In this document: positions 4,844 to 18,914 of the stretch, in pieces
How the letters are laid out: every line of letters starts with the position of its first letter
How positions within the stretch are numbered: position 1 is the stretch's first letter
Assembly: GCA_003557485.1 (NCBI GenBank)
Contig: PWOI01000029.1
Location: forward strand, 1-35,753
Length of the DNA stretch: 35,753 bases
Source of the DNA: Elusimicrobiota bacterium
Lineage (GTDB): Bacteria; CG03; SLGR01; PWQF01
Reading direction: 5' to 3'
Notes under the pieces: generated by a model
Told to the model about the DNA's origin: nothing
Databases searched by the model: none
The model's input: only the letters and a program-made list of their open reading frames with translations
Translations under genes and position numbers: made by a program

Positions 4844-5761
4844 ATGTTTCAAGCAGCTGATTTTGATATAACGGATGGTTTTAACGAGTTTCTGAAAAGT
4901 GCGGTAGAGAATCTTCCGGCGGTTTTCTCTACCATAATTATACTGGTTTTAATTACTCTTGCATTGAAAGTTATTCTTCGCAGGACCGAACATTATTTAA
5001 TAAATAAAACCAAGTGCAGGGCCAAATCTCCGGGCGAATATGAAAAAAGAGTAAATACTTTGACGGGGGTTTTAAATAAATTTATTTATATAATTATATG
5101 GGCTGCCGGACTTACAATTATGGTCGCCCGGCTCGGTATGAATATAGCGCCTCTTGTAGCCCTTGCAGGAGTCTTCGGGATTGCTATCGGATTTGGCGCT
5201 CAGAGCCTTGTACAGGACATAATAAACGGAATTTTAATACTTTTTGAAAACCAGGTGCGAGTTGGAGATGTTGCAGCAATAAACGGAACGAGGGGCCTGG
5301 TTGAGGCTATAAACTGGCGGACAATAATTCTCAGGGATGTTCAGGGAGCCGTACATATTTTTTCAAACGGGTCAATAAAATCCCTTTCTAACCTTACAAA
5401 AGAATGGTCTGCCTTTGTTTTTGATATAGGGGTTGCATACAAAGAGGACGTGGACAATGTTATTTCGGTTATCAGGGAAGTTGCTGACGGACTAGAGCAG
5501 GATGAAGAATTTGGCAAAAAAATAATAGAGCCCGTGGAGGTTTTCGGCCTTGATAAATTTGACAACTCTGCGATTGTAGTAAAGGGAAGAATAAAGACCC
5601 TTCCCCGCCAGCAGAGGCCTGTTGGCAGGGAATTCAACCGGAGAATAAAAATAGCTTTCGATGAAAAAGGAATAACAATACCGTTTCCGCACCTTAGAAT
5701 TTATACGGGTCCTCCTTCAGACCCTCTAGAAGTTCTTTTAAAGGACGAGGGTTCAAAGTGA
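4844..5761 (+). CDS. MscS-family small-conductance mechanosensitive channel (copy 1)
   Basis: TM helices followed by [41 protein letters not shown], the MscS pore/beta-domain signature. Confidence 0.92.
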   Translation: MFQAADFDITDGFNEFLKSAVENLPAVFSTIIILVLITLALKVILRRTEHYLINKTKCRAKSPGEYEKRVNTLTGVLNKFIYIIIWAAGLTIMVARLGMNIAPLVALAGVFGIAIGFGAQSLVQDIINGILILFENQVRVGDVAAINGTRGLVEAINWRTIILRDVQGAVHIFSNGSIKSLSNLTKEWSAFVFDIGVAYKEDVDNVISVIREVADGLEQDEEFGKKIIEPVEVFGLDKFDNSAIVVKGRIKTLPRQQRPVGREFNRRIKIAFDEKGITIPFPHLRIYTGPPSDPLEVLLKDEGSK

Positions 5762-5821: not shown

Positions 5822-6739
5822 ATGGCAGAATACGAATTAACTCAAAGCATAGCGGAGTTTTTTAGAGGAATTGCAGAGAAAATACCGGGATTTCTGGTGA
5901 TTTTTCTTGTTTTCATATTGCTTACTTTTGCAGTTAAACTTATACTCTGGCGGTTTGAATCCTATGTTATTGACCGGCTTAAGAAAAAGGGCGCCTTGCA
6001 GGCGGAAGCAGAAAAAAGAGTAAACACGGTAACCGGTGTTTTCAATAAATTTATATATGTTATACTGTGGATAGTAGGTTTCATAGTTATTCTAGGCCAT
6101 TTTGGTGTTTCAACCAGCCCGCTGGTCGCTGCGGTAGGTGTTCTGGGTCTTGCTTTCAGTTTCGGAGCACAGAGCCTTGTCAAGGATATTATAAACGGAC
6201 TATTTATCATTATTGAGAACCAGGTCAGGGTGGGAGATGTTGCAATAATAAACGGTACCGGCGGCTTTATTGAGGCAATAAATCTCCGGACAATAATATC
6301 GCGCGACCTCACCGGGACAGTTCACGTTTTTCCAAACGGTTCCATCGACACTATAGCCAACCTTACCAAAGAATGGTCTGCTTTTGTTTTTGATGTTGGC
6401 GTTGCCTATAAGGAAGATGTAGACAATGTAATTTCCGTAATAAAGGAGGTTGCCGAAGGGCTGCGTAACGATGAAGAGTTCGGGGAAAAAATAAAGGAGC
6501 CTGCGGAGGTTTTCGGGCTGGATCAGTTCGGTGATTCGGCAATAGTAATAAAAGGAAGAATAAAAACTTTTCCGCTGCAGCAGTGGGCTGTTGCCAGAGA
6601 GTTTAACCGAAGGATAAAGATGGAGTTTGACAGGCGCGGGATAACCATACCTTTCCCGCACAGGAGGGTTTACCTTGGCAAGCCGTCAGACCCTCTGGAA
6701 GTCCTGTTGAAAAAGAACAAGGAAGAAGGAAAAAAATGA
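5822..6739 (+). CDS. MscS-family small-conductance mechanosensitive channel (copy 2, tandem paralog)
   Basis: [41 protein letters not shown]. Same length (305 aa) and collinear with copy 1. Confidence 0.92.
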
Positions 6740-8062: not shown

Positions 8063-8764
8063 ATGATAAAATATGTTGTCGCAATTTTAATTCTTACCTT
8101 TCTTCCCTTTTCACAGGGTTGTGAGGGAGAAAACGTTTTTTCGGGGTTTCACAAATCAGGAACCGACACTTCAACCGGTGCCCGCCTTGCCGATGCAAGA
8201 AAGGCTCTTCGCGACGGAAATTACAAAGAAGCTCTTAAAATATACGAGGAGATTCTTGAGCAAGATCCCAGAAATTCCGAAGCTCTTTACGGGAAAGCGG
8301 CGGCCGAGCTTAGAGCTGCAGGCCTGGACCTGCGCCATATTTTCGATACCCTGCTGGACTTAGATGATGACGATGATGACGGTGAAATAGATATAATAGA
8401 CGAGCTTTTCGGTGGCCTGGGACTTAAAAATGTAGCCGATGCCACGGCCGAGTCCGTAAAAGATCTTAAAAAAATAGCTGACGGCAAAGCTGATGGAACT
8501 ATTCCTCCTGACAATTATGATGTTAATATGAATCTGGCCGTTCTTATAACCCTGAACGCTTTCGTTGATATGATGGTTAAAAATGATGTTGACAATATAG
8601 ATGACCTTGAAAATGAAATAGACGAGGGTGAGAGAAATAGCATTGTTGACAAAATTAAAGATGCAAAAAAATATGCTAAAGTTGCAGGCGGCGCAATGGG
8701 CAAAGATATAGTAGAAGCTTTTGATAATCTTATTGAGCAAATTGAAAAATGGAAACTCTCGTAA
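8063..8764 (+). CDS. Secreted/lipoprotein-like TPR-containing protein with acidic EF-hand-like loop
   Basis: N-terminus MIKYVVAILILTFLPFSQGC; TPR-like ARKALRDGNYKEALKIYEEILEQDPRNSEALYGKAAA; acidic DDDDDDGEIDIID segment. Confidence 0.7.
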   Translation: MIKYVVAILILTFLPFSQGCEGENVFSGFHKSGTDTSTGARLADARKALRDGNYKEALKIYEEILEQDPRNSEALYGKAAAELRAAGLDLRHIFDTLLDLDDDDDDGEIDIIDELFGGLGLKNVADATAESVKDLKKIADGKADGTIPPDNYDVNMNLAVLITLNAFVDMMVKNDVDNIDDLENEIDEGERNSIVDKIKDAKKYAKVAGGAMGKDIVEAFDNLIEQIEKWKLS

Positions 8765-8765
8765 A

Positions 8766-9908
8766 ATGATAAATAAACAGGTGACATCAACCCTGTTTGT
8801 CTTTTCGTTTCTTTTTTTTGTTACGATAGAGTCTGTATCTGCGCCTATAAACATAGAGGGCGTTGAAAACCTGGGGATGGGGGGCGTGGGGACTGCCGTA
8901 AACAGCCCGAAAGCCGTTCTTTATAATCCGGCTCTTCTGGGTCTTCGGGAAGGTTTCAAAATAACCGTTATCGATATTCCCATCACTATATCCCACGATA
9001 TCGTAAAAACTGCTATGTTTATCTATAAAAATATGGATGAGCTTATGGATAATGATGACTGGGATGAACTTGATGAGGATTTAAGGGACGATATAATTGA
9101 CCTGGCTCTCTATGATTTCAGGATTAACATAGGAATGCTTGCTCCTAACGTTTCAGCCGGCCCTTACCCTCTATATACGGGCGTGCGCTGGTGGGATATG
9201 TGGTGGGGGTTGGGTTTGTACAATGAGAATTACATATCTTTTTCTCTTGACGAAGGGATACTGATTCCGACATTTGACCTTAAGGCCCAGGCTGATGCCG
9301 TGGTTCACTTGCCGTTTGCATTCAGGGTCCAGCACCTTCCTTACAGGCTTCCGGGACAGCTTTATTCCGGTTTTGCCGTCAAATATATGATGAGGACCAG
9401 GGTGGAAAAAACAAGACGCAGTATAATGGAAATAGAAGAAGTTATGGATGAACTTGAAGATCAGGATTTTGAGCCGGGAACCGGATTGGGTTTTGATCTT
9501 GGTTTATACTACGATATATCTCCGAAATGGAGCATAGCGTTTGCTGTCAGGGACTTTCTGGGGTCAACTATAGAGTATCCGGACGGTGAAAAGGACGAGA
9601 TATCCGCCCGGATAGATTTAGGTGCAGAGTATACCCCTCACAGTAGAATTGAACTTGCTGCAGACCTCAGGGATATTAAATTCGATGACTTTACCGGTGC
9701 TTCTTTTTTCACCAAACTGCATCTGGGGTGCCAATTCCACCTGACAAGAATTTTGAAGCTGCGCGGCGGATTGTACCAGGGCTATCCTACATTCGGTTTC
9801 GGTATAGGCGGAGCGATAAACTATGCATTTTACGGGCGTGAACTCGGCCGATATGCAGGAGATGATCCCCAGTTGAGTCACACCCTGGCATTTGCTCTTA
9901 GATTCTAA
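8766..9908 (+). CDS. Outer-membrane beta-barrel protein, PorV/UPF0164/FadL-like
   Basis: Signal peptide, then ENLGMGGVGTAVNSPKAVLYNPALLGL (typical start of PorV/FadL-like barrels), alternating beta-strand pattern and C-terminal LAFALRF. ATG 8766 follows the 8764 stop and is preferred to the listed 8721 start. Confidence 0.7.
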   Translation: MINKQVTSTLFVFSFLFFVTIESVSAPINIEGVENLGMGGVGTAVNSPKAVLYNPALLGLREGFKITVIDIPITISHDIVKTAMFIYKNMDELMDNDDWDELDEDLRDDIIDLALYDFRINIGMLAPNVSAGPYPLYTGVRWWDMWWGLGLYNENYISFSLDEGILIPTFDLKAQADAVVHLPFAFRVQHLPYRLPGQLYSGFAVKYMMRTRVEKTRRSIMEIEEVMDELEDQDFEPGTGLGFDLGLYYDISPKWSIAFAVRDFLGSTIEYPDGEKDEISARIDLGAEYTPHSRIELAADLRDIKFDDFTGASFFTKLHLGCQFHLTRILKLRGGLYQGYPTFGFGIGGAINYAFYGRELGRYAGDDPQLSHTLAFALRF

Positions 9909-10990
9909 AAAATACGGGCGTTTTTCATCATAGCCACGCTTATAAGAAGAAATATTATGTTTGCCGACCATGCAGCCAGCATGGGAGACAAAATCCCACC
10001 GACCCCCATAGCGCGGCCTACCGTTATTGCTCCCCAGTAGATGAAAGCTATAAGAAGGGCGATAAAGAATCCAGCAGTCCTGCTTTTCATTCCTCCCCAT
10101 AGTGCTAGCGGTATTCCGAGTATTAGTATTATTGTGTTTGAAAATGGAAAAGATATCTTATGATGCAGTATAACGCGGTGCCTTCTTGAAGATAGCCCTC
10201 CTTTTTCAATTCTTCGGGTATGCCTGAGCAGTTCAATAAAACCCATGCTTTCAGGGTTTTCTTCGGCTTTTTCGAAGTTTACAGGGGTTTCAGGAAGATC
10301 AGTGTGTATTTTTTCAAATTCCATAAACGAAATGGATTGACCGTCATCAGGAGAAAAATCTCTTAAGGTTCCATTATAAAATTCCCATGACCCGTCAGTA
10401 TATACAGCGCGTTCGGCAGTCATTCTGGAAATTTCTCTGGTTGTACCTTTAAGGAATTCTATCATTTTCACTCCATAAAGCGTATTTTCTGAGAGCTTCT
10501 CTATGAAGTAAAAGCGGTCCCCTGCAGCGGCATAGGAGAAGTTTTTTCTTGTGTCGTCAGGCTCACGGGGGTCTCTTCCTCTTATAATACGGAAAAGATT
10601 GTCTGCTTTTCTGTTGGCTGGCGGAACAACCGTTTCGTTTATAATAAGAGAAGAAATGCTTATAAGAATAGAAATTAATATAAGGGGTTTAAGGGCTTTA
10701 AGTATGCTTATTCCGGAACTTCCTATAGCGGTTATTTCACCGTGCCTTTTCAGGGATCCCAGGGAGAAAAGAACTGCAAGAAGAGCAGCCACCGGCATAA
10801 CCATTACAAACCAGTCAGGTATCCTGTTTAAAAAATAGACCGCAAGCATATCTATAGGCGGTTTCTGATCAAGAAATGTATGCATATAATCGAAAAAGTG
10901 CGTTACAATCATAAGGATTAGAAAAGCAATTAGAGCTGCGAAGAACGGCTTGAGAAAAGAATAGGCCAGATATTTCTGTATCAGCTTCAC
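9905..10990 (-). CDS. lptG: LptF/LptG-family permease (LptG-like)
   Basis: YjgP/YjgQ architecture: KYLAYSFLKPF...PVAALLAVLFSLGSLKRHGEITAIGSSGISILKALKP. Confidence 0.85.
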   Translation of the reverse strand: MKLIQKYLAYSFLKPFFAALIAFLILMIVTHFFDYMHTFLDQKPPIDMLAVYFLNRIPDWFVMVMPVAALLAVLFSLGSLKRHGEITAIGSSGISILKALKPLILISILISISSLIINETVVPPANRKADNLFRIIRGRDPREPDDTRKNFSYAAAGDRFYFIEKLSENTLYGVKMIEFLKGTTREISRMTAERAVYTDGSWEFYNGTLRDFSPDDGQSISFMEFEKIHTDLPETPVNFEKAEENPESMGFIELLRHTRRIEKGGLSSRRHRVILHHKISFPFSNTIILILGIPLALWGGMKSRTAGFFIALLIAFIYWGAITVGRAMGVGGILSPMLAAWSANIIFLLISVAMMKNARIF

Positions 10991-12078
10991 CGGTTAAAAC
11001 TTACCGTGATCATTACGGCTCCCAGTCCACCCATTAGAAAATTAGGGAGCCACACTCCAAGCCAGGGCGCTATATCACCGTTAAATGCAAGCTTAATTCC
11101 ACCTGTCATAAGAAAATAATATATAGCAATAACGGCCAGACTTATTCCGATACCTATTGTTTTTCCTTTAACTTCTGCCCTTAGCCCCAATGGTATACCG
11201 CATAACATCAGTGCAAGTGCCGCTCCTGCAAGCGCGCCGCGAATATGCAGGTGTGCGGAAACTGTATTAGTAGGCAGTCCTCTTTCCTCAAGCCTGTTAA
11301 TTTCCTCTTTCATTTCAAAGTAACTTTTAGATTCAAGATTTTTACTCACAGTTATATCTTCATCGCTTCTGTGTATAGTTATTGAGTATTCTTGGAATTC
11401 GATACTGCTTAATATTTCGGGCCTGTCTGGGGGTTGGTGTCGGATAAACCCTTCATAAAGCATTAAAACAAGGGAGTTGTCTTTTTCGGTACTCCATATT
11501 CCTCTTCTCGCCTCAATAAACATTTCAGGTTCATCGTTGTCGGCCGGTTTGTTAATCATAACCTCCCTTAGTGATTGTTCTCTGTGATTAACAGAGTGTG
11601 CCAGAAGAGTATACTCTCCAATTTCAACCTGGGTCCCTTCTTCAATCTGTATGGCAGGTTCCCGGTAAGCCAGGTGAGTAAACCTGTAGCGAAAAGCATA
11701 ATTGCTTGCAGGGGCTACGTGGTAATTAAAAGGAATCATTATAAGAGCTATAACAAATGCGGCCCCTATAGCAGGTTTTATGATAGGAAGTATAGAGCTG
11801 CCGGAAGTTCGAATTGCCGTTATTTCTCTGTCGGAAGCCATTTTGCCGAATGTTATGACGCTTGCAGCAGCAACTGCCATGGGTACCGTAAGAACCAGTA
11901 TTGTGGGTAGGGAATAGAGCAGGAGTATTAATATTTCACCTGCTCCGACGCCTTTTGTTACAACAATCTCAACCAGCTGGAAAAGCCTTTCCATTATAAG
12001 TATAAAAGAGAAAAGCAGCAGGCTGATTGCCAGAGTAGGCAAAAACATTTTTAAAGTATAAGCAGTTAATATTTTCAT
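10987..12078 (-). CDS. lptF: LptF/LptG-family permease (LptF-like)
   Basis: YTLKMFLPTLAISLLLFSFILIMERLFQL...GKMASDREITAIRTSGSSILPIIKP. Overlaps the downstream lptG start by 4 nt. Confidence 0.85.
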   Translation of the reverse strand: MKILTAYTLKMFLPTLAISLLLFSFILIMERLFQLVEIVVTKGVGAGEILILLLYSLPTILVLTVPMAVAAASVITFGKMASDREITAIRTSGSSILPIIKPAIGAAFVIALIMIPFNYHVAPASNYAFRYRFTHLAYREPAIQIEEGTQVEIGEYTLLAHSVNHREQSLREVMINKPADNDEPEMFIEARRGIWSTEKDNSLVLMLYEGFIRHQPPDRPEILSSIEFQEYSITIHRSDEDITVSKNLESKSYFEMKEEINRLEERGLPTNTVSAHLHIRGALAGAALALMLCGIPLGLRAEVKGKTIGIGISLAVIAIYYFLMTGGIKLAFNGDIAPWLGVWLPNFLMGGLGAVMITVSFNR

Positions 12079-12147: not shown

Positions 12148-12705
12148 TTAAAAATCCGTAAAAATTTCAGAAGGACCTTTAATGAGAAGCAATATACTCC
12201 CTTCACCTCTTAATATTGCAAAAAGAAAAATAGTTTCTTTATCTTTTTTTAATCTAACTGAGCGCGCATCTCCAGAGATTAGTAATTCAGAAAAATTTTT
12301 AAATACTTCAGTTGTTTCTGTAGATATCTTTTCTGCAGTTGCGCGCATTATTTTTTCTATACTATTTATGTTAAATTCCTCTACCTTCCAGTGTTGTTTA
12401 TGAAAATAATCAGAGAACTCTCTTAGGGTTTCTTCTGAAGGCTTACCGGAGGTTACAATTGTTATGGAGCCTTTTCCCTCCAGAAGCTCTATATTGTAAG
12501 CTTTGTCAGCATAATTTTCGGGTATATCAACATCAACTATATGGTCAGTTCCGCTTAAAACAGCAATAGGGGGATGAAAATTACTGAGATTTTCAAATAT
12601 ATCATATACCGCTACAATAAGAATAATCAAAAATAATATTAGCGCTAATATGGCTAGCAATAATTTTTTCTTCTTATTTTGATTGTGTTCTCTAGTATTA
12701 CTCAT
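12148..12705 (-). CDS. Hypothetical membrane-anchored protein
   Basis: 185-aa ORF with charged N-terminus and one TM helix (KKKLLLAILALILFLIILIVAVYDIF), then a soluble domain. No family recognised. Confidence 0.6.
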   Translation of the reverse strand: MSNTREHNQNKKKKLLLAILALILFLIILIVAVYDIFENLSNFHPPIAVLSGTDHIVDVDIPENYADKAYNIELLEGKGSITIVTSGKPSEETLREFSDYFHKQHWKVEEFNINSIEKIMRATAEKISTETTEVFKNFSELLISGDARSVRLKKDKETIFLFAILRGEGSILLLIKGPSEIFTDF

Positions 12706-12919: not shown

Positions 12920-12994
12920 ATCCGGCTAGGCAAACCAAAGAAATCCCTTAATGCAAAGAGTAGGCGAAAGTGTAATAAAGATAGGCAGGATTGT
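12920..12994 (+). promoter_or_regulatory. Possible structured leader upstream of the SprA-like gene, with words reminiscent of a GEMM-I (c-di-GMP-I) riboswitch
   Basis: Reads GGCAAACC..AAAGAAA..UGCAAAG...GGCAGGAUUGUU. GGCAA can pair with the terminal UUGUU (2 GU pairs), which would cover the SD/UUG start. The expected tetraloop hairpin between GGCAAACC and GCAAAG is not evident, so this is weak. Confidence 0.2.
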
Positions 12995-15900
12995 TAATTA
13001 AAATAAAATTTATAAAAAAAAATCTGCAAGCGTTTTTATGTGTTTATGCGCTGTTTGTATTTATACCGTCAGGTTTGAAGGCTCTTAATCTTATGGATGA
13101 TGATGCACTTGACTATTTTATCAATGAAGAGATCGAAAGAGAAGAAATTGATGATTTTGAAAGGGCTATAGATATTGATAATCTTGAGTTTGACCGCGAG
13201 CTTTTTGACAGGATAAGGAGAGAAAAAGATGAGGATATATATGTCAGTCCGGAGATTGATGATGTATTTGATTTAATTGAAGCGGATCCGGACGACCCTC
13301 CTCTTTTAGAATATCCTCCGGTAATGCCTGACCTTCCTTATGAGGCGCGCCTTCAGATAACCGGCCGTAAATCAATAGCCCTTAAAACGGGTCATTCCTT
13401 CTGGCTGGGTGATGAAGAAGAAAGAACACTTACCGGTAACCCCCCCGGGCTCTTGCGGGGATTTGAAATGGATCAGGAACTTAGGGTTCGCATACAGGGG
13501 CAGGTAGGTGACAAGATTACAGTTGACGTGGACTATGATGATACCAAGCCCGCTTACGATGAGTCTGCCCGCCGTATTTCTGTGGTCTACAAGGGAGACC
13601 CGGACGAAATAATACAGGAAGCGGCTTTCGGGGATATAACCCTCACTCTTCCCAGAAAACATTTTATAGGATATTCACGTAGCGTTTTTGGTGCCAGGGT
13701 GAAAGGGCGTTATAGAAACCTTGATTTTATGGCAATTGCCTCCCAGACCAAGGGAAGAACTGAAGTAAAGGAATTTACCGGAGATACAACGTTCACCAGG
13801 AGGGATATAAGGGATATTGACTACATACGTCGCCGGCATTACAGCATAGACGTGGATACCTCTGTAAACCATCTTCCGATAGAACCGGGTTCAGTTGAGG
13901 TCTTTTTAAGGGACGGTGTAAGCGAAACCGGAGTGAAGATGGATGTAAAATATGTTAGCGGAGATACTCATAACGATTACTTTGAGAGACTGGTTCCCGG
14001 AAGAGATTTTACAGTAGATCATCAAACCGGAATTCTGACATTTTCCAGTTCCCTTTCCAGGCACTATATAGCGGCAGTCCGGTTTACCGGCAGCCAGGGC
14101 ACTGTTGGGGAAACGGATCCCGTTATTTTTGCGGATGAGCAGCGTGAGGGAGGAAAGACAGTTACTGAATACGAAAGAAAAAACTTTTACAGCCTTGGCG
14201 CGTCAAGGATATCAAGAGACGATTTTGTCCTTAGGTTTCTTGATACCAACAGAAAACCAGATACTCCGCCCAAGCCCGCATATACCGTTGATTACGATCG
14301 GGGCATACTTGAATTTGACCATAAGATGCCCTTTGACCCTGAAGACAAAAAAGGAATATATGACACTCACAACCCCCAACATAATTATATAATTTATGTG
14401 GAGTTTAAAAGCAGGATACGCCAGTATTTTCTTCGCCCTAATATTGTAAGGGGTAGTGAAAGGATAGTAAAGGACGGCAGGGTGCTGAGCCGGAACACGG
14501 ATTATTTAATAGATTACCCGTCAGGATTTATAACCTTTCTGAGACCCGAAGAAATAGATGAAACCACTACAATAAGGGCGACCTATGAGTATATGCCTTT
14601 TGGTATAGCTCAGCAGGAAACACTTGTAGGATTGCGGGCTGATTACCGGTTCTCCCGCAATCTTTCAATGGGGGGAACTCTGCTCTATAATTTTGCGGCA
14701 TCCGAGCGTGAAATACCCAGGGTAGGCCAGACTCCGCAGAGCGCCCTTGTCCTTGGAAGCAATATCGACCTGACAATACCTACAGGCCGCTATAATCCTT
14801 TTCCTACGCGTATAAGCGCCGAGGTTGCCCGGAGTGAAATGAATCCGAATACGATAGGTAAAGCAATGATAGATGATATGGACGGGATACGGATAACCCG
14901 CAGCGTATCGCTGAGAAAAGATCAGTGGCAGATAGCGGCAACGCCATCAGAAAGGGTAGCCAGTCCTTCCTGGATAGATCTGGATGAAGATGATGATAAA
15001 TACCTCAGCGACATAAACCCCAATGTTTCCAGGGATGAAGATGAGAAAGTATGGATCCTTGAGGTTGATTATGATATTCCCGCGACAGACAAGGGCTGGG
15101 GAAGCGATCTTGAAGTTTCAATTGTTAACCCTATCTCAAGGACCGGAATAGACATCGGAGATATGGATAAAATACAGCTCTGGTTTAAAGGCGACTTAAC
15201 CGATGCCGAACTGGATATTGATTTCGGGGTTATTTCGGAAGACGCTGACCGGACGGGAGTTATAAAACCGCATCCTGATAAGATTGAAGACAGCAGAATA
15301 GAAGGGTGGCAGTATGTTTATCCGGGGACCGCCCCTATAAGAAGGAATAAGGGCTGGAATTACGACTATGTAGGGGGTGGAGTTTTTACTATCGGAGCCG
15401 ATAACGGCAGGATAGATACAAACGATCTGGACAGAGACGGGATACTGGATAGAGTGGAAAATGTAGCAACCTTTGAGCAGGGACCCCTTTCGTCCGATAA
15501 ATGGAGACGCCTTGAATTTGATATAGGAGAGTTAGGCGAAGGAGAGAGGGCTAATTTAAGATTTGTAAAACATGTCCGTATTACTGTAAGAAATAAAAGC
15601 GGAGCAAGAAACAGGGGTAAATTTTACATAGCGAAACTTGAAGCCATAGGGAACCACTGGGAAGCCTCGGATGTTCATACCGATGACTCTTTCAGGGTTC
15701 TGGACGTAAACACTTTTGATAACCCCGATTACCGCAGGAATTCCCCCGAAGACGAAGATATCTATAAGGACATATACTCAAAAGTCGGAGGAAGGGATGA
15801 TATAAGGGAGGGAGCGCTTGAACTTAACTATGAACTGGAAAAAACTACTTCAGTATATGCATATATGGAGTTTCCTGCGGCACTGGACTTTTCCAGGCAT

Positions 15901-18180
15901 AAAAAACTGGAGTTTCTACTCTATGGAAAAGATGCGGGACAGGATGCCGTTTTCTTTATAGAATTCGGCGCCGGCGACAATTTTTACCGAAAAGAATATA
16001 AAATAAGCGATTATGATTTTGACAGCAGTGGATGGGAAAAATTTACTATTTCCCTCTCTGAAAAGAATCTTGCAGAGCTTGAAAAAACAGGAACTCCTTC
16101 TATTTCTAATGTAAGGGAAATAAGAGTGGGTATCAGAAATGACAGTGCCGGAAAGCTGGAAGGTAAAGTCTGGGTAAATGTTATCCACCTTTCGGATTCT
16201 ATTAAGCAGGTGGGTACCGCAGAGAGGTTCGATTTTTCTTCTACCATTCCGGGGATCCTGGAATACGGTGGGACATACGAACATGTTACAGAGGATTTCC
16301 AGACTATTACCGAGCCGCCCCGGAACCAGGAAATCACGGCCTATTCCGCCAATGCGCGCCTGACTTTGCTTGATTTCCTTCCTGTTCGGGGGCGTTACAG
16401 CCAGCGGGAAACCGTTACGCCCGCTGACCGTATACGGGATGAGGACAGAAACCCTTATATACGGGCCCGGGACGAAGGAAAGGTAGTAAGAAAAGACGGC
16501 AGTCTGGACGCCGATTTAAGGATAAGAAGATTGCCCGATATAGGCGGCCATTATTCCAGAAGTATTGAAAGGTCGGATTTTTCGGGAAGAATAGAGGAAC
16601 TGGAAACTATAAGAGGAAATTTGTCTTATAGCCCGCCCCTTGACGTATTCATAGTGCCCAGAAGTTTGCGCGGAAACGTCCGCAGAACCATAAGAGATAC
16701 TGCCTGGGATGACAGAATAATAGATGAAACAAGGGATTCCAAAAGTGATGGAGGTAAGGAAGACTGGAGCGAAGTAACATATGATTTCGGAGGAAGTTCT
16801 ACTTTCGATATGTTCGGTTTTCTGGATTTCAGGCCGGCTTACAGTAAAAACGTAAAGGACAGAACCTGGGATTTCTATGCAGGCGATTATGAGGGCAAAG
16901 AAAAAACCTGGCCCTGGAGCCGCCGCCAGAAAATTGATATGAATTCCACTTTAACGCTTGCCCGGTGGTTTAGGCCTTCTTTTTCATATGGTATAGATAC
17001 AAACGAAGATTATAATTTTGATACAGTGAATGGCTCTCCGGTTTTTATCGAGAGAAAGGATGTCGACAGAAATTTTGATATAGACAGCCGGGTTAGATTC
17101 GGTGTCAAACATGTAATCCCCGGGTTTGACCCGGTTGAAACCCTTGAGCTTGATCTGAACTACAGGTACGAAAAGGGTGAGAGCTATAAAAATCTTCCCA
17201 GCACGAGAAGTGTTTTTGATAAACTTGACTGGAGGAAAGAAATAGACTCAGATAAAGTGGATTCAGCTACAAAAAGAGACACCAGGAGGTACGGTACTGA
17301 CTGGCGGCCGTTTGATTTTATGAATCTCTCGGGAGACTGGTTGAAAGCTGTGGGAGATATGAGACTGAGAACCAACTACCGTAAAATAAATTCCTTTCGG
17401 CTCAGTCAGAATACAATTTACGAAAAGGACTCACTGACCTGGCCTGACCTGACCGCAGATTTCGGCCGTTTGCCGCGGCTGCCCTATGCAGGCAGGACAA
17501 TAACAGAGATAGATTTGAGGGGGACATACACTTTGGCTACCGATTTAGAGTACTCATACAGTGATGGAATAGACAGGGATGATGATATCCATGGTATTTC
17601 TGAAGAATGGAGGAGAAGGTATGGTGTTAATTCACGGTTTAAAATAAGGGGTAGATACGATTCTCTTCTGGATTATACTTCCGAATCAGCAGAAAAGATA
17701 GACCTTCGCGATTTGAATCCCTGGGACTGGCGTGACGAAAGAAGAACTTACAGCGGGCAGATAAAAGTTGAATTAAGACGATACTGGGACGTTATAGCCC
17801 GCTTCAGCCATTCTCGTCATGAAAGAGTTTCCTACCCTGATATCTTGCGGACCGACTCACGTAGTTACAGCCCGAGTTTAAGTTTCCGGGCAGTAATAGA
17901 TTTACCCGATATCGTAAATGTCCCTCTTTTTGGAGATGTGGCTGCCGGGAACCGTCTCAGGCTGGATGCTGATCTCAAAGCTGACTTTGCAAGGAGTGAG
18001 CTTGATATTTACCGGACAAATACAAACAGTTATACCTTCAACTGTACAGGTCAGCTGGATGTAGCGGCTAATATGCGAGGAAGCTTCGGGTTTGGAGCGC
18101 AGTATGTGCATAATATAGAGCGCTACGCTAACAGCTACGCCGGAATAAACCTCCGCGCAGAAGTAGTAATAACCTTTTAA
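12991..18180 (+). CDS. SprA-like giant outer-membrane protein (T9SS translocon SprA/Sov family homolog)
   Basis: 1729 aa, TTG start with upstream AGGCAGGA, signal peptide. SprA-family-like blocks: GQVGDKITVDVDYDDTKPAYDESARRISVVYKGDPDEIIQEAAFGDITLTLPRKHFIGYSRSVFGARVKGRYRNLDFMAIASQTKGRTEVKEF; MPFGIAQQETLVGLRADYRFSRNLSMGGTLLYNF; AMIDDMDGIRITRSVSLRKDQWQIAATP. C-terminus is beta-rich and ends VVITF. Confidence 0.8.
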   Translation: MLIKIKFIKKNLQAFLCVYALFVFIPSGLKALNLMDDDALDYFINEEIEREEIDDFERAIDIDNLEFDRELFDRIRREKDEDIYVSPEIDDVFDLIEADPDDPPLLEYPPVMPDLPYEARLQITGRKSIALKTGHSFWLGDEEERTLTGNPPGLLRGFEMDQELRVRIQGQVGDKITVDVDYDDTKPAYDESARRISVVYKGDPDEIIQEAAFGDITLTLPRKHFIGYSRSVFGARVKGRYRNLDFMAIASQTKGRTEVKEFTGDTTFTRRDIRDIDYIRRRHYSIDVDTSVNHLPIEPGSVEVFLRDGVSETGVKMDVKYVSGDTHNDYFERLVPGRDFTVDHQTGILTFSSSLSRHYIAAVRFTGSQGTVGETDPVIFADEQREGGKTVTEYERKNFYSLGASRISRDDFVLRFLDTNRKPDTPPKPAYTVDYDRGILEFDHKMPFDPEDKKGIYDTHNPQHNYIIYVEFKSRIRQYFLRPNIVRGSERIVKDGRVLSRNTDYLIDYPSGFITFLRPEEIDETTTIRATYEYMPFGIAQQETLVGLRADYRFSRNLSMGGTLLYNFAASEREIPRVGQTPQSALVLGSNIDLTIPTGRYNPFPTRISAEVARSEMNPNTIGKAMIDDMDGIRITRSVSLRKDQWQIAATPSERVASPSWIDLDEDDDKYLSDINPNVSRDEDEKVWILEVDYDIPATDKGWGSDLEVSIVNPISRTGIDIGDMDKIQLWFKGDLTDAELDIDFGVISEDADRTGVIKPHPDKIEDSRIEGWQYVYPGTAPIRRNKGWNYDYVGGGVFTIGADNGRIDTNDLDRDGILDRVENVATFEQGPLSSDKWRRLEFDIGELGEGERANLRFVKHVRITVRNKSGARNRGKFYIAKLEAIGNHWEASDVHTDDSFRVLDVNTFDNPDYRRNSPEDEDIYKDIYSKVGGRDDIREGALELNYELEKTTSVYAYMEFPAALDFSRHKKLEFLLYGKDAGQDAVFFIEFGAGDNFYRKEYKISDYDFDSSGWEKFTISLSEKNLAELEKTGTPSISNVREIRVGIRNDSAGKLEGKVWVNVIHLSDSIKQVGTAERFDFSSTIPGILEYGGTYEHVTEDFQTITEPPRNQEITAYSANARLTLLDFLPVRGRYSQRETVTPADRIRDEDRNPYIRARDEGKVVRKDGSLDADLRIRRLPDIGGHYSRSIERSDFSGRIEELETIRGNLSYSPPLDVFIVPRSLRGNVRRTIRDTAWDDRIIDETRDSKSDGGKEDWSEVTYDFGGSSTFDMFGFLDFRPAYSKNVKDRTWDFYAGDYEGKEKTWPWSRRQKIDMNSTLTLARWFRPSFSYGIDTNEDYNFDTVNGSPVFIERKDVDRNFDIDSRVRFGVKHVIPGFDPVETLELDLNYRYEKGESYKNLPSTRSVFDKLDWRKEIDSDKVDSATKRDTRRYGTDWRPFDFMNLSGDWLKAVGDMRLRTNYRKINSFRLSQNTIYEKDSLTWPDLTADFGRLPRLPYAGRTITEIDLRGTYTLATDLEYSYSDGIDRDDDIHGISEEWRRRYGVNSRFKIRGRYDSLLDYTSESAEKIDLRDLNPWDWRDERRTYSGQIKVELRRYWDVIARFSHSRHERVSYPDILRTDSRSYSPSLSFRAVIDLPDIVNVPLFGDVAAGNRLRLDADLKADFARSELDIYRTNTNSYTFNCTGQLDVAANMRGSFGFGAQYVHNIERYANSYAGINLRAEVVITF

Positions 18181-18191
18181 CCTCTGAGGTG

Positions 18192-18914
18192 ATGAAGGCA
18201 ATATTATTAAATTTATTTTTCCCCGTTAATTGTGCTTCCTGCGGTGGATATGTTAATCTGACTTCAGAATACGGGATATGCAGGGAGTGTGTTTCGGAAA
18301 TTGCACCCGTATACTCATGCGGATGCCGGTTTTGCGGAAGCCCGGTTGACAGCAAAACAGAATTCTGCAGGATATGTGCCGCGAATCAATCTTACATTGA
18401 TGATTTTTATACTGCGTTCTATTATGAAGGGACCGTCAGAAATATTATTAAAAAATATAAGTACGGAAATGCAAGGTATGTTGAGAAACTATTGGTTGAT
18501 TACCTTGTGAATCTTTTTAATAAATATATTCAGGAGAGGGAAAAAAACAGGATTGTAGTTCCGGTTTCTCTTCACCGCAGAAAGCTTAAGGAAAGAGGTT
18601 TTAATCAGTCAGAAGCTCTTGCTGCCAGGCTATCAAAGGCTTTGAGATTGAAAACCGTACCGCGTGCAATCATTCGAACAAGAAATACTGAACCGCAGTA
18701 TACAAAAAACAGGCAGGAACGCTTCAGTAATGTAAAAAATGCATTCAGCGCCAGCCGGAAATTATGTGCCGGAAAAGATATAGTATTACTGGACGATGTA
18801 TCTACAACCGGTGCTACAATACAGCAGGCCGCTGCCGCGCTCAGATCAGCCGGCGCAAAAAGGATTACAGCAGTTACTGTTGCGCACGGCCGTTTAAGAG
18901 ATATACAGGTTTGA
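18192..18914 (+). CDS. comF: ComF family protein / amidophosphoribosyltransferase-like
   Basis: CASCGGY...CRECV...CRFCG...CRIC zinc-ribbon region, KYKYGN, RRKLKERGFNQSEALA, and PRPP loop DIVLLDDVSTTGATIQQAAAAL. ATG 18192 sits after GAGGTG; the listed GTG start at 18189 is inside that SD. Confidence 0.9.
   Translation: MKAILLNLFFPVNCASCGGYVNLTSEYGICRECVSEIAPVYSCGCRFCGSPVDSKTEFCRICAANQSYIDDFYTAFYYEGTVRNIIKKYKYGNARYVEKLLVDYLVNLFNKYIQEREKNRIVVPVSLHRRKLKERGFNQSEALAARLSKALRLKTVPRAIIRTRNTEPQYTKNRQERFSNVKNAFSASRKLCAGKDIVLLDDVSTTGATIQQAAAALRSAGAKRITAVTVAHGRLRDIQV

Follow-up and report, generated by a model that had tools for sequence, protein, structure and literature searches.

A SprA-type translocon homologue and paired genes for CTD-tailed cargo and PorV-family barrels in a genome outside Bacteroidota

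The stretch of DNA analysed here (35,753 nucleotides, hereafter the window; contig PWOI01000029.1 of GenBank assembly GCA_003557485.1) is contig 42 of a 2.07-Mb metagenome-assembled genome (MAG) of 212 contigs, with 86.6% completeness and 1.09% contamination. It contains, at 12991..18180 on the plus strand, an open reading frame (ORF) that starts with TTG, is open throughout and encodes a 1729-aa protein. An earlier note, made from the sequence alone, had taken this protein for a relative of SprA, the outer-membrane translocon of the type IX secretion system (T9SS), and the blocks it quoted are present in the translation. The N-terminus is hydrophobic and signal-peptide-like, and the last residue is Phe, as in outer-membrane barrels. 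This sprA gene is described together with pairs of genes of the same genome for cargo proteins with a T9SS-type C-terminal domain (CTD) and for PorV-family barrels.

Both family models named in the earlier note matched the protein, with scores close to the curated thresholds. TIGR04189 (NCBIfam, T9SS translocon Sov/SprA) aligned in three stretches with 199.6 bits (E 5.4e-59), 0.4 bit short of its curated cut-off of 200, and Pfam SprA_N (PF14349; cut-off 27) gave 23.7 bits by hmmscan and 26.7 bits in the genome search, or 27.2 bits with the neighbours in frame. A single-protein phmmer search against PDB matched nothing relevant, and a profile was needed to reach SprA: the profile built from 13 relatives, run against all PDB chains, had F. 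johnsoniae SprA (6h3i/6h3j) as its sole match, with E 6e-28 and four collinear blocks that span residues 165-1574 of that protein and leave its last third unmatched by sequence. An AlphaFold2 model of residues 100-1250, made from a 31-row alignment (pLDDT 77, pTM 0.57), was then compared with PDB using Foldseek. The four best matches were all SprA chains (8gl8, 8gl6, 6h3i and 6h3j; E 9e-54 for 8gl8 to 4e-38), the next match having an E of 1e-8. As the match covers about half of SprA with an rmsd near 14 Å over a long alignment, the model supports the fold family, not details. A single-sequence prediction of residues 41-655 was discarded (pLDDT 31). Taken together, the family model, the PDB profile and the predicted fold confirmed the protein as a SprA translocon homologue, at the level of sequence comparison and structure modelling. 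Its small size, which the earlier note had remarked on, holds for the whole clade, whose members are about 1640-1860 aa long versus 1830-2400 aa in the other lineages examined.

The nearest named relatives of the host are MAGs deposited mostly as Elusimicrobia, with stray labels such as Sumerlaeota, Caldiserica or Clostridia; such labels are unreliable, and only some 15 genomes of the comparison set were placed in the same phylum. SprA is conserved in 15/16 genomes of the phylum, and the SprA of locus L070 is 85% identical to that of the window over the first 775 residues. In a FastTree phylogeny of 51 SprA sequences, built on a trimmed, difficult alignment and trusted for its main split only, the window SprA grouped with the Elusimicrobia-labelled relatives (local support 1.0), apart from the SprA of G217, a positive-control genome that carries a GldKLMN set. 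The host genome is not Bacteroidota. Nor does it have an ordinary Bacteroidota T9SS, one of three outcomes that the earlier note had named as counting against its reading, none of which was observed: GldM, GldL above its cut-off and the PorU-type peptidase C25 are missing from the genome and from its order.

SprA and GldM were counted over 289 genomes, a tool-selected set centred on this genome that does not amount to a census; SprA was detected in 121 of them at E ≤0.001 (62 above the cut-off). The genome itself gave 16 matches to the CTD model TIGR04183, located at C-termini, and 27 matches to PorV_fam, of which 7 exceeded the cut-off and several were fragments at contig ends. GldL had no match in this genome and one weak partial match elsewhere in the phylum (G004, 20 bits versus a cut-off of 68), and GldM was absent from this and every sampled genome of the phylum. 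GldM was found in 2/289 genomes, G217 and G076, with GldL adjoining, and these served as positive controls on which the models work. Genome G076 is complete and has its GldL-GldM pair at locus L228 (G076:C1:3467000-3481000), but neither SprA nor the PorV family gave a match in it, a case of the motor without the known translocon. Peptidase_C25 was found in 0/8 genomes of the order, including those that are 94-97% complete; in the sister family f5, six genomes carry one C25 protein each, and at least three of these proteins have a CTD at their end, like PorU. C25 and M6 peptidases were both missing from G000, G001, G003, G005 (97% complete) and G007, so an M6 protease as a universal replacement for PorU was rejected for the window. 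These findings support the earlier note, which had suggested that this SprA lineage may be under-described and that its partners may be fewer or different.

The presence of SprA followed that of its cargo signal and shuttle. Among 60 genomes, 28 had both SprA and CTDs, none SprA only, 3 CTDs only and 29 neither (p 4e-14); for SprA and strong PorV matches, 27 genomes had both, one had each alone and 31 had neither (p 9e-15). SprA showed no co-occurrence with C25 or M6 in these genomes.

The genes for CTD proteins and PorV-family barrels were arranged in pairs. Seven of the nine matches to PF18962 in the genome lay within 200 bp upstream of a PorV match on the same strand (chance about 2e-19), and reading of the regions gave 14 CTD-to-PorV pairs, in most of which a 4-bp overlap joins the cargo stop to the barrel start. 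Where the sequence upstream of a PorV gene could be read, a paired CTD gene was present in about 14 of 19 cases. A CTD model trained on the tails of these 14 pairs was applied to ten other genomes, where it detected a C-terminal CTD in 39 of the 52 ORFs that immediately precede a PorV gene, compared with 3/84 other ORFs (0/13 downstream, 3/71 others; p 2.6e-19). Pairing is frequent in distant lineages, such as G059 (6/7), whose SprA has 2080 aa, and G043 (6/6), and is not general, as G016 and G013 each had 1/4. In the GldKLMN-bearing G217, three PorV-family matches were present, of which the two that were examined lack a CTD gene immediately upstream. The ten paired barrels that were scanned matched the PorV_fam, PorQ, PorV or PorV2 models and none matched the PorP/SprF family; the best barrels reached 140-180 bits on PorV_fam and also matched the PorQ and PorV models. 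The cargo tails scored similarly and weakly, mostly below cut-offs, on the type A, type B and FlgD-Ig models (FlgD_ig, CHU_C and Por_Secre_tail). Fibronectin III, Kelch, FG-GAP and immunoglobulin-like (Ig-like) domains are among those present in the bodies of the cargo proteins, as expected for surface proteins. On G000:C84 (L152 3-7802), a 4266-aa open frame ends in a CTD-like tail, and a short ORF of 285 aa stands between it and the next cargo gene.

In the window, a gene for a small TPR lipoprotein with a lipobox-like SQGC at its start (8063..8764, +; Pfam TPR_19, E 4e-6, sequence and synteny) precedes a gene for a divergent PorV/PorQ-family barrel (8721..9908, +; NF033709, E 9e-11, 41.9 bits, below the cut-off of 90), with which the 3′ end of the TPR gene overlaps. 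The TPR gene precedes a PorV-like gene in three other loci too, and its product might, as a speculation, be a functional counterpart of the TPR lipoprotein SprE/PorW. Ten further SprA loci have homologues of the PorV-like gene, which lie upstream of lptFG in almost every case. Two genes for LptF/LptG-family permeases of lipopolysaccharide (LPS) export follow on the minus strand, divergent from sprA (9905..10990, PF03739, E 6.5e-80; 10987..12078, PF03739, E 1.5e-73, in the same conserved neighbourhood), and lptFG adjoins sprA divergently in 25/41 loci across distant lineages. Between lptF and sprA lies a gene on the minus strand for a 185-aa protein with one N-terminal hydrophobic segment (12148..12705), to which family scans assigned no convincing family. 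In three loci an IS200-like REP-type tyrosine transposase occupies the interval between lptF and sprA (L071 770-1690, L072 2351-3301, L095 2825-3745); it carries a DnaA C-terminal helix-turn-helix domain, both domains having been checked in L072. The window also contains two tandem genes for MscS-type mechanosensitive channels (4844-5761 and 5822-6739).

Downstream of sprA, comF (18189..18914, +; NCBIfam comF, E 1.3e-30) is usually directly 3′ of sprA in these lineages, being present in 22/41 loci, and is probably a housekeeping neighbour. The order sprA, comF, lysS, lolCE, lolD, ilvE, mcsAB, clpC recurs in several genomes of the order. The neighbourhood comF-lysS-lolCE-lolD-mcsAB-clpC-tamB had been read correctly before, an ilvE-type aminotransferase standing between lolD and mcsA, and it is common to related genomes. 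The co-presence of SprA and McsAB-ClpC that the earlier note had stressed is likewise true, but has no evident bearing on SprA; TamB and McsAB-ClpC were dropped as parts of the system, as they represent housekeeping synteny at the level of the order only.

A deeper conserved order, ahcY - TPR - PorV-like - CTD-tailed protease - lptG - lptF (both divergent) - sprA - comF, was found in many Elusimicrobia-labelled genomes and in Desantisbacteria. The window retains the TPR and PorV-like genes, and its protease slot is empty. The slot upstream of lptG holds either an M6 protease with intact HExxH (L074, L078, L081, L090, L091, L099, L100 and L105) or an S8 subtilase with catalytic triad motifs (L077, L097 and L101), both CTD-tailed. 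These two unrelated families are mostly placed after the PorV-like gene, and both are candidates for a PorU substitute. Members of one gene family lie between sprA and comF in L076, L092 and L094, that of L094 matching LptE; together with the lptFG neighbours, they raise the possibility that type IX export and LPS transport are connected.

We consider it reasonably probable that this non-Bacteroidota lineage has a reduced type IX-like system, in which each cargo is provided with its own PorV-type shuttle and anchor and the CTD is not cut by PorU. The homology and fold of SprA, the PorV family, the CTDs, their co-occurrence, the gene pairing and the absence of recognisable GldL, GldM and C25 form its basis; from these we infer binding within the pairs, CTD retention and the energy source. 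The conserved sprA locus, with its PorV-like genes and CTD-tailed M6 or S8 protease genes, also speaks for such a system. The cargo would leave the cytoplasm by Sec, its C-terminal Ig-like CTD would fold in the periplasm, and the cargo would then enter the SprA pore, where a PorV-family barrel, docked to the lateral opening, would carry the CTD to the cell surface. Most cargoes would use the barrel encoded directly downstream, instead of one PorV for all type A cargo. As no recognisable PorU is present, the CTD is most likely kept and the cargo held on the surface by its cognate barrel, like PorU on PorV and PorZ on PorQ in P. gingivalis; a cargo that stays on its own PorV-type barrel would not need PorU. 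Since no known T9SS motor protein is present, the energy would have to be supplied by a diverged motor, or by the assembly and folding steps themselves.

Several observations weigh against this reduced system. The genome is known from a MAG of 212 contigs with 87% completeness, and the negatives for motor and sortase depend on curated models that distant relatives may escape. The CTD-bearing C25 protein of family f5 indicates that a sortase-free state is not phylum-wide, and in some relatives the active-site-bearing, CTD-tailed M6 or S8 proteases beside SprA could cut CTDs, the genome-wide protease searches having been for C25 and M6. Of the PorV-family genes whose upstream region could be read, about five are unpaired, including that of the window at 8721-9908. 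An alternative is an ordinary T9SS whose motor and sortase have diverged beyond the models or are unassembled, in which all cargo shares one export mechanism, CTDs are cleaved by a different protease (M6, S8 or unknown) and PorV has simply multiplied. The slot proteases beside PorV-like genes and SprA, the single C25 protein in f5 and the incompleteness of the genome speak for it. However, C25 and M6 are missing together from five genomes, one of them 97% complete, GldM is in no sampled genome of the phylum, and gene-by-gene CTD-PorV pairing is unexpected under a single shared shuttle, so that we regard an ordinary T9SS as a rather unlikely, though serious, alternative.

A role of this SprA in lipid or LPS transport, instead of protein export, is suggested by LptFG in 25/41 SprA loci and by the gene family with an LptE-matching member between sprA and comF in three loci; it is improbable, as SprA presence follows that of CTDs and PorV almost perfectly, PorV-like genes and CTD-tailed secreted proteases lie within the same conserved neighbourhood, and the predicted fold is that of a protein translocon. 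Slightly more doubtful still is a reading in which neither partner of the pairs has to do with SprA: the tails would be FlgD-like Ig domains of a generic kind, the barrels ordinary FadL-like transporters, and the pairs a surface module for handling sugars or lipids. The even scores of the tails on FlgD_ig, CHU_C and Por_Secre_tail, mostly under the cut-offs, and the several barrels below the PorV_fam cut-off would fit such a module, but CTDs and PorV co-occur with SprA, the tails are strictly C-terminal, the best barrels score highly on PorV_fam and match PorQ and PorV as well, and pairing recurs in lineages with a 2000-aa SprA. Contamination of the bin by a Bacteroidota contig, conceivable in a binned MAG with 1.09% estimated contamination, can practically be dismissed, given that the order sprA-comF-lysS-lolCE-lolD-ilvE-mcsA-mcsB-clpC is repeated in independent relatives, with whose SprA proteins that of the window clusters, away from GldKLMN-bearing G217.

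Descriptions of the T9SS restrict it to Bacteroidota and the Fibrobacteres-Chlorobi-Bacteroidetes (FCB) group and name the GldLM rotary motor as its drive. In the present lineage, labelled mostly Elusimicrobia, the pore, the shuttle and the cargo signal occur without a recognisable GldLM motor or PorU, and the pore with its PorV pairs suggests a simpler way of running a T9SS. More tentatively, and with the balance somewhat against it, the SprA-PorV-CTD core could be an older and wider export system in which each cargo has a PorV-type barrel and stays on it, and of which the Bacteroidota T9SS, with GldLM motor, single PorV and PorU sortase, would be a later elaboration; in that case, SprA would move proteins in the absence of the known rotary motor. 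Should the pore indeed work without that motor, the powering of type IX export becomes directly testable, and the gene pairs give a simple prediction of which surface protein belongs to which barrel.

The protein resembles F. johnsoniae SprA/Sov (6h3i, 8gl8) in its four collinear blocks, in the SprA fold being the only one that matches well, and in its company of CTD cargo and PorV-family barrels. It differs in having 1729 aa versus 2400 aa, in falling 0.4 bit under the equivalog cut-off, in belonging to a separate clade and in a genome without recognisable GldL or GldM. In Bacteroidota, type A CTDs share one PorV and type B CTDs use an SprF-like barrel encoded directly downstream (PMC12618676). 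The type B CTD/PorP-SprF pairs share with those described here a cargo gene that has the gene for its own shuttle barrel directly behind it, but the shuttles here belong to the PorV/PorQ family and the tails fit type A, type B and FlgD-Ig about equally. In P. gingivalis, uncut CTDs keep PorU attached to PorV, and PorZ to PorQ, and the cognate barrels have been suggested to protect the CTD (PMC10202324). These complexes likewise hold an uncut CTD protein on its own PorV-type barrel, but there CTD retention is limited to PorU, PorZ and a small number of other proteins, as parts of the machinery, whereas it is proposed here for the majority of cargo proteins, in a genome without a recognisable PorU.

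T9SSs have been reported or suspected in other FCB phyla, namely Fibrobacterota, Cloacimonadota, Gemmatimonadetes and Ignavibacteriota (PMC11285876, PMC6851124). Those are also SprA/CTD systems outside Bacteroidota, but the label Elusimicrobia prevails in the present lineage, and cargo-shuttle gene pairs are not mentioned there. A literature search, whose scope left out most subscription journals, retrieved no paper on T9SS in Elusimicrobia or on CTD-PorV pairs; the NCBI models for PorV2 and for a T9SS-dependent M6-like protein indicate that curators are aware of related variants. The pairing of genes for CTD cargo with genes for PorV-type shuttles is the new observation.
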